Source: a virus. From it: a stretch of 47,609 nt of DNA. The position numbers and the translations under genes were made by a program. The stretch lies in the IMG/VR virus record IMGVR_UViG_3300016457_000773, positions 1 through 47,609 of that record; one strand, written 5' to 3'. The notes beneath the pieces were generated by a model, which had not been told where the DNA came from, did no database searches, and worked only from the letters and a program-made list of their open reading frames with translations. The first letter of the stretch is position 1. The number at the start of each line of letters is the position of its first letter. Shown here piece after piece: positions 14,102 to 46,879 of the stretch.

Positions 14102-15102
14102 TCACCTACCCTGTTTTGAAGAAGCTTTTTTCATTTTAGATAATTGCATATTTTGATATTTTGCTTCTGCTGCTCTTATTGCATCAAATGCATCAATAAT
14201 AAATTCGGGTTGGTCAAGATATCCACCAGCAAATGGTAATACATGATATTTACTTGCAGCCGTTTCAAGAGATACTAACCATTCGTGGAATGGGTCGAAC
14301 AAACCTACTGCACATACAGGTTCACCATTCAACCCTATACGTAAATACACAGAATTTAATACATCAGTCACAAGCTTATTTGGCATAAAATCATGCACTC
14401 TCATAATCAATTCACACACATCCTTTTTAGTTACCATTCGTTTTTCCCATTCCACTATCTTGCCATTAGAATCCAATATCGGAAATCTCAAGAACTGTTC
14501 CTTATCTCTCAAAAAACATACTCTACCTTTATACCGTTCCTTTTTCATACAATACAAACAATCAAACTCCAAAGAACTCTCCTGGTTATCAGCCCGCCAT
14601 AGGCTGAAAGTAACCAGGAGTTCTAATATTTTTTTTCAATGTTTCCCAGCTTACTAACATCAGAAGCAACATTCATAATCTCACGAATAGCAGCATCATC
14701 AAGTTCTCGATATACATCAATAATCATATCTTCGGTTTCAATAAGGGGCACATAATAATCAACATATTCGTTGCCATCGTCATCTACATATTTAACTTCT
14801 TTAGCCTTTTCTTTAATATTCGGATGCTTCTCATAATATTCATCAGAAAAGGCAAAATTTTCAATCTTTTTAACAACCGTCTTAAAAGCTACTATATTGG
14901 CATTATCTGCCATTTTAACATCCATATCCCTTGTACCATCGCCTCTTTCAATAATAGCCTTAACATAATATCTGGTAATCATATTCGAATCATGCCCCTT
15001 TCTCGGCTTAATCCAGAATATGGTCTGTCTGTCTTTCGGAAGATTTAAGTCCCTTTCCAATACATAAGGTAAAACTTGGGTTGAAGAAATTCCCTTAGCC
15101 AT
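14102..15102 (-). CDS. Tail assembly chaperone long form, made by -1 ribosomal frameshift
   Basis: The short chaperone ORF (14623-15102) ends in GAA AAA AAA TAT TAG. A -1 slip on the eight-A run (T8 on the + strand at 14629-14636) continues in frame, without a stop, into the ORF ending at 14102. The product would be 333 aa: 158 residues of the short form, 19 linker residues, then 156 residues. A strong hairpin begins 5 nt after the slip site. Tail chaperone pairs (lambda G/GT type) are made this way in many long-tailed phages and sit between tube and tape measure, as here. The downstream ORF also has a TTG codon at 14570-14572 with AGGAG 6 nt upstream, so independent initiation is possible but less likely. 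Confidence 0.8.
14574..14636 (-). promoter_or_regulatory. Programmed -1 frameshift signal: A8 slippery run plus hairpin
   Basis: Read on the minus strand: the slippery run is eight A (14636-14629, in frame as GAA AAA AAA), followed by a 5-nt spacer TATTA and a hairpin at 14623-14574. The outer stem GAACTCCTGGTTA pairs with TAACCAGGAG-AG-TTC (a 2-nt bulge), and an inner stem TCAGCC pairs with GGCTGA around the loop TATGGCG. The zero-frame TAG lies between slip site and stem. Slippery heptamer, short spacer and stable stem are the three parts of a bacterial -1 frameshift site. Confidence 0.8.
14623..15102 (-). CDS. Tail assembly chaperone short form, 159 aa
   Basis: The normal-frame product lies between the tail tube gene (4-nt gap) and the tape measure. 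It is acidic in its C-terminal half, with a helical end (DDAAIREIMNVASDVSKLGN) just before the slip site. I recognise no named domain, but position, size and the frameshift signal at its 3' end identify it as the G-type chaperone that coats the tape measure during tail assembly. The ATG follows GGAGGATAAGCT, a good Shine-Dalgarno. Most ribosomes should stop at the TAG at 14623-14625, giving an excess of short over long form. Confidence 0.8.
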   Translation of the reverse strand: MAKGISSTQVLPYVLERDLNLPKDRQTIFWIKPRKGHDSNMITRYYVKAIIERGDGTRDMDVKMADNANIVAFKTVVKKIENFAFSDEYYEKHPNIKEKAKEVKYVDDDGNEYVDYYVPLIETEDMIIDVYRELDDAAIREIMNVASDVSKLGNIEKKY

Positions 15103-19608: not shown

Positions 19609-21114
19609 TTAGGACAAATCCAACACAAAAGTCCAGGTTCTCGGTCGTTTAGAAGAAACCCCAAAGAAATACTGCTCTGCTTTCGTAAAAACTCCAAATT
19701 TCTCATAACTATAAGCATCTTTAGCAATCCAGCTACCATTAATAAGAGTATATGCTTTAGAAGTAATAGGAATTTCCATTGTTGTGTGGAAATGCCCTAT
19801 AATTTCCATATCAAACGGATATTCAGCTCTACGTGCCTTTGATTTTCTAACAATACCATAATAAGGCATAGAATTATGCACTACTATACTGTTTGCAACA
19901 TAATAATGATTTTCATTAAGTTGCAAATCCATCACTTCACCTTTATAAGGCATTTTCTTAATAGAAGCTACTTTAACAGGAATCTTATTTCCATCGCTAT
20001 CTATAATTGCTACATAATCCCCAACAGAGATATCCTTTGCCATTAATTCTTGCCAAGCTCCAACTCTTTTTATTACAGGTAATTTATGATTAGGGGTTAA
20101 ATATAAAGGCTCATTAATTAACCAATCAGTTCTCAATTCGAGTAAACAATCATCAATTGAATAAGTAAAAATATCCTCTACAATAGAAACCTTCCCAGCA
20201 CCGTTTATAACTTTATCTCCTTTTCTTATTTCAAACAGTTTTCTTTCAGTTCTATTTGCCATTAGTATCTTTGAATATGGGCTTAAACACATCCAGGAAT
20301 ATACATCATTACCATGATGTAAGAAATATACCCAATCATATATGCGGGGGTAATAAAAATATGAATTTGGAATTTCAAATGTTATCCTATCCACATTTGC
20401 AAAAATAGTTGATAAAATCCATGAGAAATGATAATCAAAATTTCTACTGGCTGGAGAAGCTTCTGATCTTGATGTATGCCTACCATGATTACCTGGAACA
20501 GATACAACATGTATATGTTTAAAAATCTTTAAAAAGCTATTCAAAATATCAGAAAATACTTTAACTGCTATCTGTAATTGCTCTCCAGTATCACCATCGA
20601 TAAAAAACTTCTGCCCTCTATATATAAAATCGTTATCAATAATATCCCCAACAAAATAGACATATAAAGTATCAATTTGATAATGCCCTGATAATAATTC
20701 GATAACTTCATATACCTTATTTACTAAATTATTCGCCTTATTAATAAAAATATCAAAATCATAAGTTCTAACTATTTCATTAGTTTCGGGATCGAGAAAA
20801 TCATTTACTTTACCTGCATGTACATCGGAAATAACCAATACTGCCGATTCTTTTAATTTGCCCTTAAAAATATTTTTAAATTTCGGCGGTTTAACAAGTG
20901 ATTCAGATTTAAGCTTTTCAATAAGTCCTTCTGAAAATGCTTTAACACTAAGTTCAAGTTTTTCTTTTTGAGCATCTATATTATATTTCTTCCTGAATAA
21001 CTGTAAATAAAAACGAGCATCTCTGTCTGTTAAACCAAACTTCTTCGCTAATCGAATCCTTCCTATTGAAGGATTTTCAAGTAAAAAATCTTCAATTTCT
21101 TTTGGAATACTCAT
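19609..21114 (-). CDS. Metallophosphoesterase with N-terminal HTH, interrupted by a mini-intein
   Basis: The 501-aa precursor starts with a helix-turn-helix-like region (residues 12-46). The calcineurin-like metallophosphoesterase motifs follow: ISDVHAGKVN (95-104, D-x-H), VGDIIDN (155-161), VPGNHGRH (206-213), FLHHGND (264-270) and IIGHFHT (438-444). Residues 276-414 form an intein, so the mature enzyme would be 362 aa. The family includes Mre11/SbcD-type nucleases and diesterases; phage relatives may process DNA. It is encoded between lysis-like and neck genes. Its start ATG comes 7 nt after the LDT-like gene stop on the other side of the operon order; the spacing is typical. The nucleic-acid substrate is not evident. 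Confidence 0.85.
   Translation of the reverse strand: MSIPKEIEDFLLENPSIGRIRLAKKFGLTDRDARFYLQLFRKKYNIDAQKEKLELSVKAFSEGLIEKLKSESLVKPPKFKNIFKGKLKESAVLVISDVHAGKVNDFLDPETNEIVRTYDFDIFINKANNLVNKVYEVIELLSGHYQIDTLYVYFVGDIIDNDFIYRGQKFFIDGDTGEQLQIAVKVFSDILNSFLKIFKHIHVVSVPGNHGRHTSRSEASPASRNFDYHFSWILSTIFANVDRITFEIPNSYFYYPRIYDWVYFLHHGNDVYSWMCLSPYSKILMANRTERKLFEIRKGDKVINGAGKVSIVEDIFTYSIDDCLLELRTDWLINEPLYLTPNHKLPVIKRVGAWQELMAKDISVGDYVAIIDSDGNKIPVKVASIKKMPYKGEVMDLQLNENHYYVANSIVVHNSMPYYGIVRKSKARRAEYPFDMEIIGHFHTTMEIPITSKAYTLINGSWIAKDAYSYEKFGVFTKAEQYFFGVSSKRPRTWTFVLDLS
19873..20289 (-). other. Mini-intein (139 aa) within the metallophosphoesterase
   Basis: The intein runs from Cys276 to Asn414 of the precursor. 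Block A is CLSPYSKILM, followed by a KGDKVIN segment; block B is LYLTPNHKLPV with the T-x-x-H pattern (Thr340, His343); block F is KGEVMDLQLNENHYYVANS; block G is VVHN followed by Ser415 as the +1 nucleophile. The length leaves no room for a homing endonuclease, so it is a minimal splicing element. The insertion point lies between the HHGND and GHFHT metal-binding motifs, so the enzyme should be inactive until splicing. Codons at both junctions (TGT, AAT, TCT) were checked. Confidence 0.88.
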
Positions 21115-41442: not shown

Positions 41443-41511
41443 GGGGGTGAAAGGATTCGACTGAATGGTTATTAACCATTCAGGAAGCAGGTTCGATTCC
41501 TGCCACCTCCA
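41443..41511 (+). ncRNA. tmRNA-like tRNA domain without mRNA-like domain, 69 nt
   Basis: The acceptor stem is GGGGGTG with CACCTCC (7 bp, one G-U) and discriminator A. A D-stem is absent and the region reads AAAGGATTCGA, matching the 5' tmRNA signature GGATTCGAC. An 8-bp stem CTGAATGG/CCATTCAG closes a 7-nt loop TTATTAA. The T-arm is GCAGG-TTCGATT-CCTGC. In tmRNA the stem after GACs carries the long mRNA-like and pseudoknot part; here it is closed by a short loop. CCA is not encoded. A tRNA scan would probably reject it because of the missing D-arm. It may be an attachment remnant, a regulatory decoy or a minimal tmRNA. Confidence 0.65.
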
Positions 41512-41533
41512 CAAGATTTTTGATGAGGTTGTA

Positions 41534-44440: not shown

Positions 44441-44940
44441 AAACGGTTTTTCACCATAACATATTGGTAATCAAGGGATTGAAAGAAACAAGATGTTTTT
44501 GTGTTTGGTAAGTGATAGGTGAGAAATAGTTTCCTATCGGATATATAGTGATTGGATTGTTGTTGCTAAATATGTAATTGTTGGAAAATTGGAAAATTGT
44601 TGAAAGTATTGTAAAACGGGGATAAGCACTGGAAAATTGTTTGGTATACGGTAAATGATAATAGAATAGGACAGAATATCGCAAAACATCATAAGCTATG
44701 GTAAAGTATAGTGAGATTGTTTGTAATAAAGTAAGCTATGGTAAGATAGGACAGGATATTGCGAAATCGGATATAACCGTTGGAAAATAAGCTATATCGT
44801 TGAAAGGATTGTAAGATAGTGATAACTATGGTAAAACAAACAATCGATTGGTAAGGTAAAGCAAAATGATGTAAAATAATAGAAAGTTTGCAATCACAAG
44901 CTTTGCACGAAAAAAATTGCAAAAAAATTGCAAAAAGGTC
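44441..44940 (+). repeat. G-rich, C-poor tract with repeated TGGWAA elements
   Basis: Over about 500 nt the + strand has roughly three to four times more G than C. Elements of the form TGGTAA or TGGAAAA recur at least ten times (ATTGGTAATC, TTGGAAAATTGG, CTGGAAAATTG, TATGGTAAAG, TATGGTAAGATAGG, GTTGGAAAATAAG, ATTGGTAAGG). AATAGGACAGAATATCGC and GATAGGACAGGATATTGC are diverged copies of one unit. The opposite strand gives only low-complexity reading frames. It could be a long untranslated leader, a protein-binding array, or an origin. Confidence 0.5.
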
Positions 44941-44969
44941 TTGACAAAATACAATATAATGTATAAATT
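44941..44969 (+). promoter_or_regulatory. Promoter of the 45-kb operon, TTGACA with TATAAA/TAAATT
   Basis: TTGACA (44941-44946) is a consensus -35 box. TATAAA is 15 nt later (44962-44967) and TAAATT 17 nt later. The start codon of the zinc-ribbon gene is 30 nt downstream. Confidence 0.55.
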
Positions 44970-45451: not shown

Positions 45452-45462
45452 TAATTATCAAG

Positions 45463-45505
45463 CCGTGCACGTTGTCAATTGATAGCGTGCACGGTTTTGT
45501 TTTTT
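45463..45505 (+). terminator. Intrinsic terminator after the 81-aa gene
   Basis: CCGTGCACG (45463-45471) pairs with CGTGCACGG (45486-45494), 9 bp, GC-rich, followed by TTTTGTTTTTT. This is a textbook intrinsic terminator on the + strand. It separates the zinc-ribbon pair from the next genes, so a further promoter or read-through must serve those. Confidence 0.85.
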
Positions 45506-45531: not shown

Positions 45532-45750
45532 ATGATAGAGATATCAGAATATTCTAAAAAACATTTTAAACTAAACAAAAAACATTTAAACGAAATTAGT
45601 CATTTTATGTTTTTTCTTAATACTAAAAAGAATATTACAAGTCCAAACTTAAAAGTTATAGATAAGAGAAGCTTTATTGACTTTCACCTATATACTAAAC
45701 GTCCTCTATATAAGCAAATAAGTAAATCTCTATTAGTCTATGTGGACTGA
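45532..45750 (+). CDS. Hypothetical small protein, 72 aa
   Basis: I do not recognise it. The sequence is basic and rich in Lys, Phe and Tyr (MIEISEYSKKHFKLNKKHLN; SFIDFHLYTKRPLYKQISKS). GAGG precedes the ATG at good spacing. It is followed by the structured RNA region, so it could be a short leader-type gene as much as a stable protein. Confidence 0.5.
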   Translation: MIEISEYSKKHFKLNKKHLNEISHFMFFLNTKKNITSPNLKVIDKRSFIDFHLYTKRPLYKQISKSLLVYVD

Positions 45751-45768
45751 TAAAGATTGTAAAATTAT

Positions 45769-45978
45769 AAGCCTGATGTATAAAGCATCAGGCTTCTTGT
45801 ATATGATAGGGTTTTGCCTGGTATTCCCTATCATATATATCTTACAAATACCAGGATTTTATTTTACCCCGATTACGGGTATTCATTTATTTCCCAAGCC
45901 TGTAATTGGGGTTTATATTTTCGGGATAAACGGGGTAAATGTGGAGCTACCCGTTTATCCTAACAACAATAGCTCCAC
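45769..45978 (+). ncRNA. Structured RNA with two H-type pseudoknots
   Basis: Four consecutive elements. A hairpin AAGCCTGATG/CATCAGGCTT (45769-45795). Pseudoknot 1: stem ATATGATAGGG/CCCTATCATAT (45801-45811 with 45826-45836) whose loop CCTGGTATT (45817-45825) pairs with AATACCAGG (45847-45855). A 13-bp hairpin CCCCGATTACGGG/CCTGTAATTGGGG (45867-45911, two G-U). Pseudoknot 2: GGATAAACGGG/CCCGTTTATCC (45924-45934 with 45950-45960), loop GTGGAGCTA (45941-45949) pairing with TAGCTCCAC (45970-45978). Both knots have 11-bp and 9-bp stems, no middle loop, and loops of 5-6 and 9-10 nt. It ends 5 nt before the Shine-Dalgarno of the next gene. Confidence 0.75.
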
Positions 45979-45992
45979 GAATGGAGTTTATT

Positions 45993-46322
45993 ATGGATTC
46001 AAGAAAAATTAACTGGAAAAACTTCGGTTATGTTAATTTTAACAAGAAAAACACAATTCAGGATCAGTCCAAGTCTGATCCTGATAGATTCGAATTTATG
46101 GGTAGGAAATTAACCATAGGTCAATTGAGAAATTTCTTTAATTCTGATACCGAACTTATGAAATTTATGTTTAGACAGAAATTACATCGTGGGGATTTCA
46201 AACATCAGGATCAGGTCGATAGCTGGTATATAGATGTAATACAAAAGTACGGAATTAATCCAAGCGGATTATTGAATTTGTTTAGAAAATTATTTATAGC
46301 TAATAGAATATTAAGAGGTTAA
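45993..46322 (+). CDS. Hypothetical protein downstream of the pseudoknot RNA, 109 aa
   Basis: I do not recognise it. It has a basic N-terminal part (DSRKINWKNFGYVNFNKKN) and a helical remainder (IGQLRNFFNSDTELMKFMFR; SGLLNLFRKLFIANRILRG). The ATG at 45993 has GGAG 7 nt upstream, just after the second pseudoknot, so translation may depend on that structure. A 10-bp hairpin TCAGGATCAG/CTGATCCTGA (46058-46084) lies within its coding sequence. An ATG 54 nt earlier would overlap the pseudoknot and lacks a Shine-Dalgarno. Confidence 0.65.
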   Translation: MDSRKINWKNFGYVNFNKKNTIQDQSKSDPDRFEFMGRKLTIGQLRNFFNSDTELMKFMFRQKLHRGDFKHQDQVDSWYIDVIQKYGINPSGLLNLFRKLFIANRILRG

Positions 46323-46324
46323 TT

Positions 46325-46879
46325 ATGAGTGAAAAAAGAATTTTATTATTAAACTCCGCTATCATGCCGACCTCTGGTATATATGAAATTAACAAGGTCA
46401 ATAAAGAACAGTTTATCCGATTAATTCAATTCGCAAGTAAATATAACATCCTGGACTCTTATATCGGTTACGGCCAAGTCACAGAATATATCTATGGTAT
46501 ATCAGGAGTTAGGATTCCAGTTAATAGAACCCAGGCTATTCCAAACGTTGGTGATTATTTCCTGGTTATTAAGCTTACCAGAAGAGTAAGCAATCCAGCG
46601 GATAAAGGAAAGATTGATAGTCCTGAGTATGAGTTTTATTTTGGGATATACTACGGTGACAAATACGTTATGGAAAGTAGAGCCTGGTTAATAGAGGAAT
46701 ACGGGAAACTGGAGACTTACATATTACCATTCGAAGTTACGAAAGGCGAAGTTCGGGTATTTCTGAATGAAGAGTATTGTAAAGACACTGAAAGTGATAT
46801 AGTTATCTATTATCCCGTTATTCCTGGCAATGAAAGTATTAGCTCGTTAGATATATCAAAAAATAAAGAAGAGGGTTAA
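46325..46879 (+). CDS. DUF1874 family protein (AcrIII-1/ring nuclease-like), 184 aa
   Basis: The sequence fits DUF1874: ILLLNSAIMPTSGIYEINKV (6-25), then YIGYGQVTEYI (46-56), VRIPVNRTQAIPNVGDYFLV (62-81) and IKLTRRV. Family members (STIV B116, SIRV1 gp29; AcrIII-1) degrade cyclic tetra-adenylate and so block type III CRISPR. The family's catalytic His lies in an I-G-H-x-x-T motif; here it is I-G-Y49-G-Q-V-T, so hydrolysis is doubtful and binding of cyclic nucleotide alone is possible. A C-terminal extension (about 115-184) is not typical. It starts with ATG 3 nt after the previous stop. Confidence 0.7.
   Translation: MSEKRILLLNSAIMPTSGIYEINKVNKEQFIRLIQFASKYNILDSYIGYGQVTEYIYGISGVRIPVNRTQAIPNVGDYFLVIKLTRRVSNPADKGKIDSPEYEFYFGIYYGDKYVMESRAWLIEEYGKLETYILPFEVTKGEVRVFLNEEYCKDTESDIVIYYPVIPGNESISSLDISKNKEEG

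Follow-up and report, generated by a model that had tools for sequence, protein, structure and literature searches.

Tandem H-type pseudoknots before a DUF1874-carrying phage operon: a candidate element for translational control

Results

The locus and its genes

The window, meaning the whole stretch of DNA analysed, is the complete IMG/VR virus record IMGVR_UViG_3300016457_000773 (47,609 bases, linear), which is possibly a fragment. It contains tailed-phage genes, including a portal match, and it has terminase-like relatives in Vibrio phages at about 25% identity. In the right-hand operon, a gap of 242 nt separates the end of a 72-aa gene from the next ATG, and the other gaps nearby measure -4 to 80 nt. 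The large gap was found to hold, in this order, hairpin A, knot 1, hairpin B and knot 2 (Table 1). A 90-aa ORF that runs across the knots (45740-46012) was rejected as a gene; it has no Shine-Dalgarno (SD) sequence and no PADLOC match.

Table 1. Features of the leader and of two loci in other phages
Feature	Position	Strand	Remarks
Intrinsic terminator of preceding gene	45460..45497	+	17-bp hairpin, then TGTTTTTT
72-aa gene	45532-45750	+	stop codon overlapped by next hairpin
Hairpin on stop codon of 72-aa gene	45725..45758	+	
Hairpin A	45769..45795	+	10-11 bp, perfect; weak T tail
Knot 1, H-type	45800..45855	+	S1 45800-45811/45826-45837, S2 45817-45825/45847-45855
Hairpin B	45866..45912	+	15 bp, 17-nt loop; three G.U pairs on + strand
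GGGTTTA heptamer, possible slippery site	45909..45915	+	8 nt before knot 2
Knot 2, H-type	45924..45978	+	S1 45924-45934/45950-45960, S2 45941-45949/45970-45978
Alternative hairpin AGCTCCA-CGAA-TGGAGTT	45971..45988	+	S2 3' strand of knot 2 with SD; excludes S2
SD GGAG of downstream gene	45983..45986	+	from sequence; ATG at 45993
109-aa basic protein gene	45993..46322	+	pI 10.1; first under leader
Hairpin within start of 109-aa gene	46058..46084	+	perfect, 10 bp
DUF1874/STIV_B116-like gene	46325..46879	+	Pfam PF08960, 44.3 bits
H-type knot of a distant DUF1874 phage	L005:8706-8749		8/7 bp, loops 8/1/5; directly before AAGGAG and ATG of peptidase gene
Knot-like fold	L095:2327-2378		12/6 bp; 13 nt before start of 298-aa ORF rich in Glu and Lys

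An earlier note, made from the sequence, placed the knots two genes upstream of a DUF1874 gene. The DUF1874 gene is indeed the second one downstream, with a single gene intervening. The product of that gene, the 109-aa protein, is predicted to be helical towards its C-terminus (mean pLDDT 76, single-sequence prediction) and gave no match in Pfam, PHROGs, PADLOC, PDB folds or viral folds. A basic protein encoded right behind the leader would suit autogenous control.

In the DUF1874 protein of the window, Tyr stands in place of the ring-nuclease His of the IGH motif. The same replacement, Y-IGY (SYIGY or NYIGY) for IGH, was present in six of six DUF1874 proteins (the window, L004, L005, L105, L106 and L107). 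Judged from this motif, the members of this phage DUF1874 subfamily, with Tyr for the presumed catalytic His, would perhaps bind rather than cut, as cyclic-oligoadenylate binders.

Several other elements were noted in the record. A 72-nt tRNA-like mini-tmRNA lies at 41443-41514 (+) and scored 66.7 bits with the Rfam tmRNA model. Both ends of the family are kept, the tag ORF and the pseudoknots are missing, and a 10-bp hairpin stands instead. Its acceptor has a G3-U70-like pair (alanine identity). It was missed by ARAGORN, no copy turned up in the other phage loci retrieved, and a radical-SAM gene begins directly after it. It could be a trans-translation decoy or an att remnant. The SD (CAGGAG) of the gene at 14102-14572 is closed off by an 11-bp hairpin at 14579-14620 (-), which has a second hairpin inside it and is likely another translation-control site in this phage. 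A metallophosphoesterase gene at 19609-21114 (-) is split by an intein. The region 44500-44870 is non-coding with many degenerate short repeats (GGTAAG, GGAAAATTG, GATTGTAA), and a strong promoter-like site lies downstream of it at 44941.

Geometry of the two pseudoknots

Two H-type knots had been proposed in the earlier note, and both were located, with every pair Watson-Crick. Knot 1 has an S1 of 12 bp, an S2 of 9 bp, and loops of 5 (L1), 0 (L2) and 9 nt (L3). Knot 2 has an S1 of 11 bp, an S2 of 9 bp, and loops of 6, 0 and 9 nt. The 9-bp second stems, the missing middle loops and the first loops of 5 and 6 nt agreed with the proposal. The 11-bp first stem held for knot 2 and needed correction for knot 1, which has an extra U-A pair; likewise the last loops, given as 10 and 9 nt, were 9 nt in both, and that of knot 1 becomes 10 nt only when its S1 is trimmed to 11 bp.

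Common to the two knots are the zero-nt junction between S2 and S1 and an S1 of 11-12 bp, which is one helical turn. They are spaced 68 nt apart, lie within 180 nt, and differ in sequence, so they are not repeats of each other. The L3 of knot 2 (UAACAACAA) is A-rich. Such loops are found in pseudoknots with a minor-groove triple helix, which knot 2 resembles in this respect. Each knot is preceded by a hairpin (A and B), as the earlier note had it; two more hairpins flank the region, on the stop codon of the 72-aa gene and within the start of the 109-aa gene. Hairpin A is a possible weak terminator or operator.

Chance expectation, folding energy and strand

When the 47.6-kb window was shuffled 1200 times with its dinucleotides preserved, knots of at least 20 bp in total occurred twice. 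This corresponds to 0.0017 expected per window, against two observed. Eighty other phage loci (radical-SAM phage loci from alignment-based scans, 2.32 Mb of strand) contained knots of 14-18 bp in total and none larger. In a sliding fold of the whole record, 45721-45840 (+) ranked first by a wide margin (z = -10), with a minimum free energy (MFE) 26 kcal/mol below that of its own shuffles.

The structured stretch folded to -100.1 kcal/mol on the + strand and to -81.9 on the - strand. When G.U pairs were disallowed, the values were -76.2 and -74.2, respectively. Part of the difference between the strands is due to composition, since the shuffle energies also differed by 7.5 kcal/mol between them. 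When the main stems were extended with G.U and A.C treated alike, eight G.U and two A.C were counted (the weak stem at 45657 was left out), a bias that by itself is only suggestive. Both the energy excess and the G.U bias point to an RNA of the + strand, which is the strand of the flanking genes.

The two knots are almost certainly real RNA structures. The earlier claim of a selected RNA structure was borne out by the statistics, the shared zero-nt junction, the short loops, the G.U bias on the + strand and the top folding score of the record.

Competition between knot 2 and a Shine-Dalgarno hairpin

The SD sequence begins 4-5 nt past the end of knot 2, and the distance from knot 2 to the ATG is 14 nt (GAATGGAGTTTATT). 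Because knot 2 lies so near the ribosome-binding site, it probably controls translation. The 3' strand of its S2 (UAGCUCCAC) contains CUCCA and can form 7 bp with the SD. The resulting hairpin with flanks has an energy of -7.9 kcal/mol, and would be fully formed if the S2 3' strand were free. With that strand captured, a weak SD hairpin of -2.7 kcal/mol was still left. As full a sequestration of the SD was reached by just 0.3% of random strands with the same GC.

The pairing of the S2 3' strand with the SD competes with S2, and this is the basis for the proposed switch. Using a pseudoknot penalty of 9.6 kcal/mol, a common model value, the knot state was estimated at -21.7 kcal/mol and the combination of S1 hairpin and SD hairpin at -24.6; with an error of several kcal/mol, these rough figures only say that two states would compete. 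Near-equal energies of the knot and SD-hairpin states are what a switch requires.

We suggest that a formed S2 in knot 2 would capture its own 3' strand and leave the SD free, so that translation is ON. With S2 open, the same strand would close the SD, and translation would be OFF. Knot 2 can form before the SD emerges, because the 5' strand of S2 is transcribed first, and during transcription it would presumably be the first of the two structures to form. Holding or melting knot 2 might then fall to a protein, which could be the basic 109-aa product, and this would set the balance between ON and OFF. Knot 1 and the hairpins could provide a second recognition site or act as a stabiliser. Knot 1 is not followed by a start codon and is not explained by the S2/SD switch.

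Control of translation was one of three functions offered in the earlier note, and it is the best of them, since knot 2 can sequester the SD with the 3' strand of its S2. We hold control of translation by the leader with moderate confidence and the exact S2/SD switch with low confidence. The full reading, in which the intercistronic fold of hairpin A, knot 1, hairpin B and knot 2 controls translation of the 109-aa/DUF1874 operon through this switch, is tentative; we give it a rough probability of 0.42.

Search for relatives of the leader

Searching phage and plasmid DNA gave no homologue of the leader. When viral contigs were scanned with protein patterns of DUF1874, the terminase, the capsid and the 109-aa protein, no relatives came up, and scans of genomes with the DUF1874 pattern gave no homologous leader. 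These scans detect close relatives only, so the absence is weak evidence. Distant DUF1874 phages were reached via alignment-based scans.

One of these phages is represented by two nearly identical contigs (L004 and L005). There, 12 nt separate the end of an H-type knot from the start codon (ATG) of a peptidase gene; the knot lies two genes ahead of the DUF1874 gene and has a small hairpin in front. Its S2 reads UGGAG/CUCCA, as at knot 2. The architecture is the same as that of knot 2 on a smaller scale; its anti-SD pairing was no better than that of random strands, and by our estimate a knot of this size before a start would be met by chance in about one in twenty genomes.

Three further DUF1874 loci (L105, L106 and L107) had no knots. 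The link between knots and DUF1874 is therefore not general, and we rejected it as a rule. The fold at L095 was not counted as a knot: its S2 is AT-only and its first stem is terminator-like. The second stem may have arisen by chance beside a terminator hairpin. Among the 80 other phage loci, knots of at least 15 bp were not clearly enriched ahead of start codons (1 of 27).

Discussion

Alternative explanations

The structure may be accounted for in other ways. The knots and hairpins could be an RNA stabiliser or exonuclease block, in the manner of tandem xrRNAs or intercistronic stabilisers. They would shield the operon mRNA downstream from a 5'-3' exonuclease of the RNase J type, or the mRNA upstream from 3'-5' decay. 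Compact, stable tandem knots with hairpins in series in an intercistronic gap would suit this function, and it accounts for both knots alike. It does not predict the SD competition, and we consider it unlikely. More doubtful is a structured phage RNA that is set free from the intercistronic region by processing or termination and acts in trans as a protein sponge, a host-defence decoy or an antitoxin-like RNA. The structure is strong and self-contained, tandem pseudoknots recall type III antitoxins, and a terminator and a terminator-like hairpin lie upstream; against these stand the lack of mutual repeats between the knot sequences, the lack of a terminator between knot 2 and the SD, and the absence of an adjacent toxin-like or other defence protein in Pfam and PADLOC searches. 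The same upstream elements, together with a position at the start of an operon that extends beyond the end of the record, could also suggest a transcription antitermination leader of an early operon of the put/EAR type, in which the folded RNA rides with RNA polymerase. We regard this as improbable: no further + strand terminator occurs downstream within the record, and Rfam, by which alone the put/EAR likeness was judged, showed no match.

At the DNA level, the interlocked inverted repeats could be protein-binding sites or cruciforms of an operator or a replication site. Palindromic arms are legible on both strands, and the near-perfect dyad of hairpin A might serve as an operator. The zero-nt junctions and the matching short loops of both knots fit RNA and not DNA, and the exceptions to perfect pairing are G.U rather than A.C, with the energy excess on the + strand. 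This makes a DNA element very improbable. Least credible is a -1 ribosomal frameshift signal made up of the heptamer (GGGUUUA), an 8-nt spacer and knot 2 with its 11-bp S1. The spacer of knot 2 falls within the canonical 5-9 nt, and knot 1 has no slippery site. The sole zero-frame ORF (45814-45963, 49 aa, TTG) is not preceded by a clear ribosome site, and a TAA (45927-45929) inside knot 2 ends the -1 frame; on these reading frames frameshifting was rejected.

The leader could also belong to a new phage RNA class built of tandem modules of a hairpin and a long H-type knot (one per ~125 nt), with a full-turn S1, a 9-bp S2 and a zero-nt junction. It would then serve the DUF1874-carrying operon as a switch, a protein-binding device or a nuclease-blocking device. 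This we think unlikely.

Comparison with known systems

The earlier note knew of no named family with this layout, and the covariance models of Rfam 15 agreed: at the knots there was no match at the gathering score, and the two matches at E<=1 were far below the cut-off and on the other strand. Some known RNAs resemble the leader in outline. Tandem exonuclease-resistant RNAs of flaviviruses and plant viruses also consist of pseudoknot-bearing structures in tandem, and rely on a fold that encircles the 5' end as a ring. tmRNA has H-type knots in series, and the same phage carries the tRNA-like mini-tmRNA 4 kb away, whereas the knot site has no visible tag ORF or acceptor domain and no Rfam tmRNA match.

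The type III antitoxin RNAs (ToxI, TenpI and CptI) consist of short repeats in tandem, after which come a terminator and the gene of a ToxN-like toxin (PMC5086642). Tandem H-type pseudoknots upstream of a gene are a shared trait. We rejected this assignment because the two knot sequences differ, no terminator follows knot 2, and no ToxN/TenpN/CptN-like match was obtained (Pfam, PADLOC).

In the ribosomal-protein leaders rpsO/S15 and L20, pseudoknots near the SD control initiation in an autogenous manner (PMC4137082, PMC3014915). The present leader differs in having two consecutive knots and an SD outside the knot, and no ribosomal-protein family of Pfam matched the gene that follows it.

With the moderate confidence that we attach to translational control, we interpret the knots as a variant of phage mRNA-leader pseudoknots, of which the closest precedent is T4 gene 32. 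The gene 32 operator of T4, T2 and RB69 has an H-type pseudoknot in the mRNA leader, ahead of the ribosome-binding site, and is bound by the product of the downstream gene itself (PMC3014915, PMC535899). The window likewise has an H-type pseudoknot upstream of a ribosome-binding site. T4 gene 32 has a single knot of ~28 nt about 67 nt upstream, followed by an unstructured UUAAA-rich stretch that is cooperatively coated. In the window, on the other hand, two knots of 55 nt each are built from stems of 11-12 and 9 bp, hairpins lie between them, and the SD follows 4 nt after the knot. A UUAAA/UAAA coat region is absent from the mere 14 nt between knot 2 and the ATG, and the 109-aa protein, though basic (pI 10.1), gave no match (Pfam, PHROG, fold) that would mark it as a single-stranded DNA-binding protein.

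De novo RNA searches target nested helices, and knots of this kind fall outside their design (PMC4137082). More of them may be hidden in phage leaders. A second, larger, tandem case with a built-in alternative pairing of the SD would show that the principle is wider, and the leader is a compact system in which each step is testable by strand swaps.
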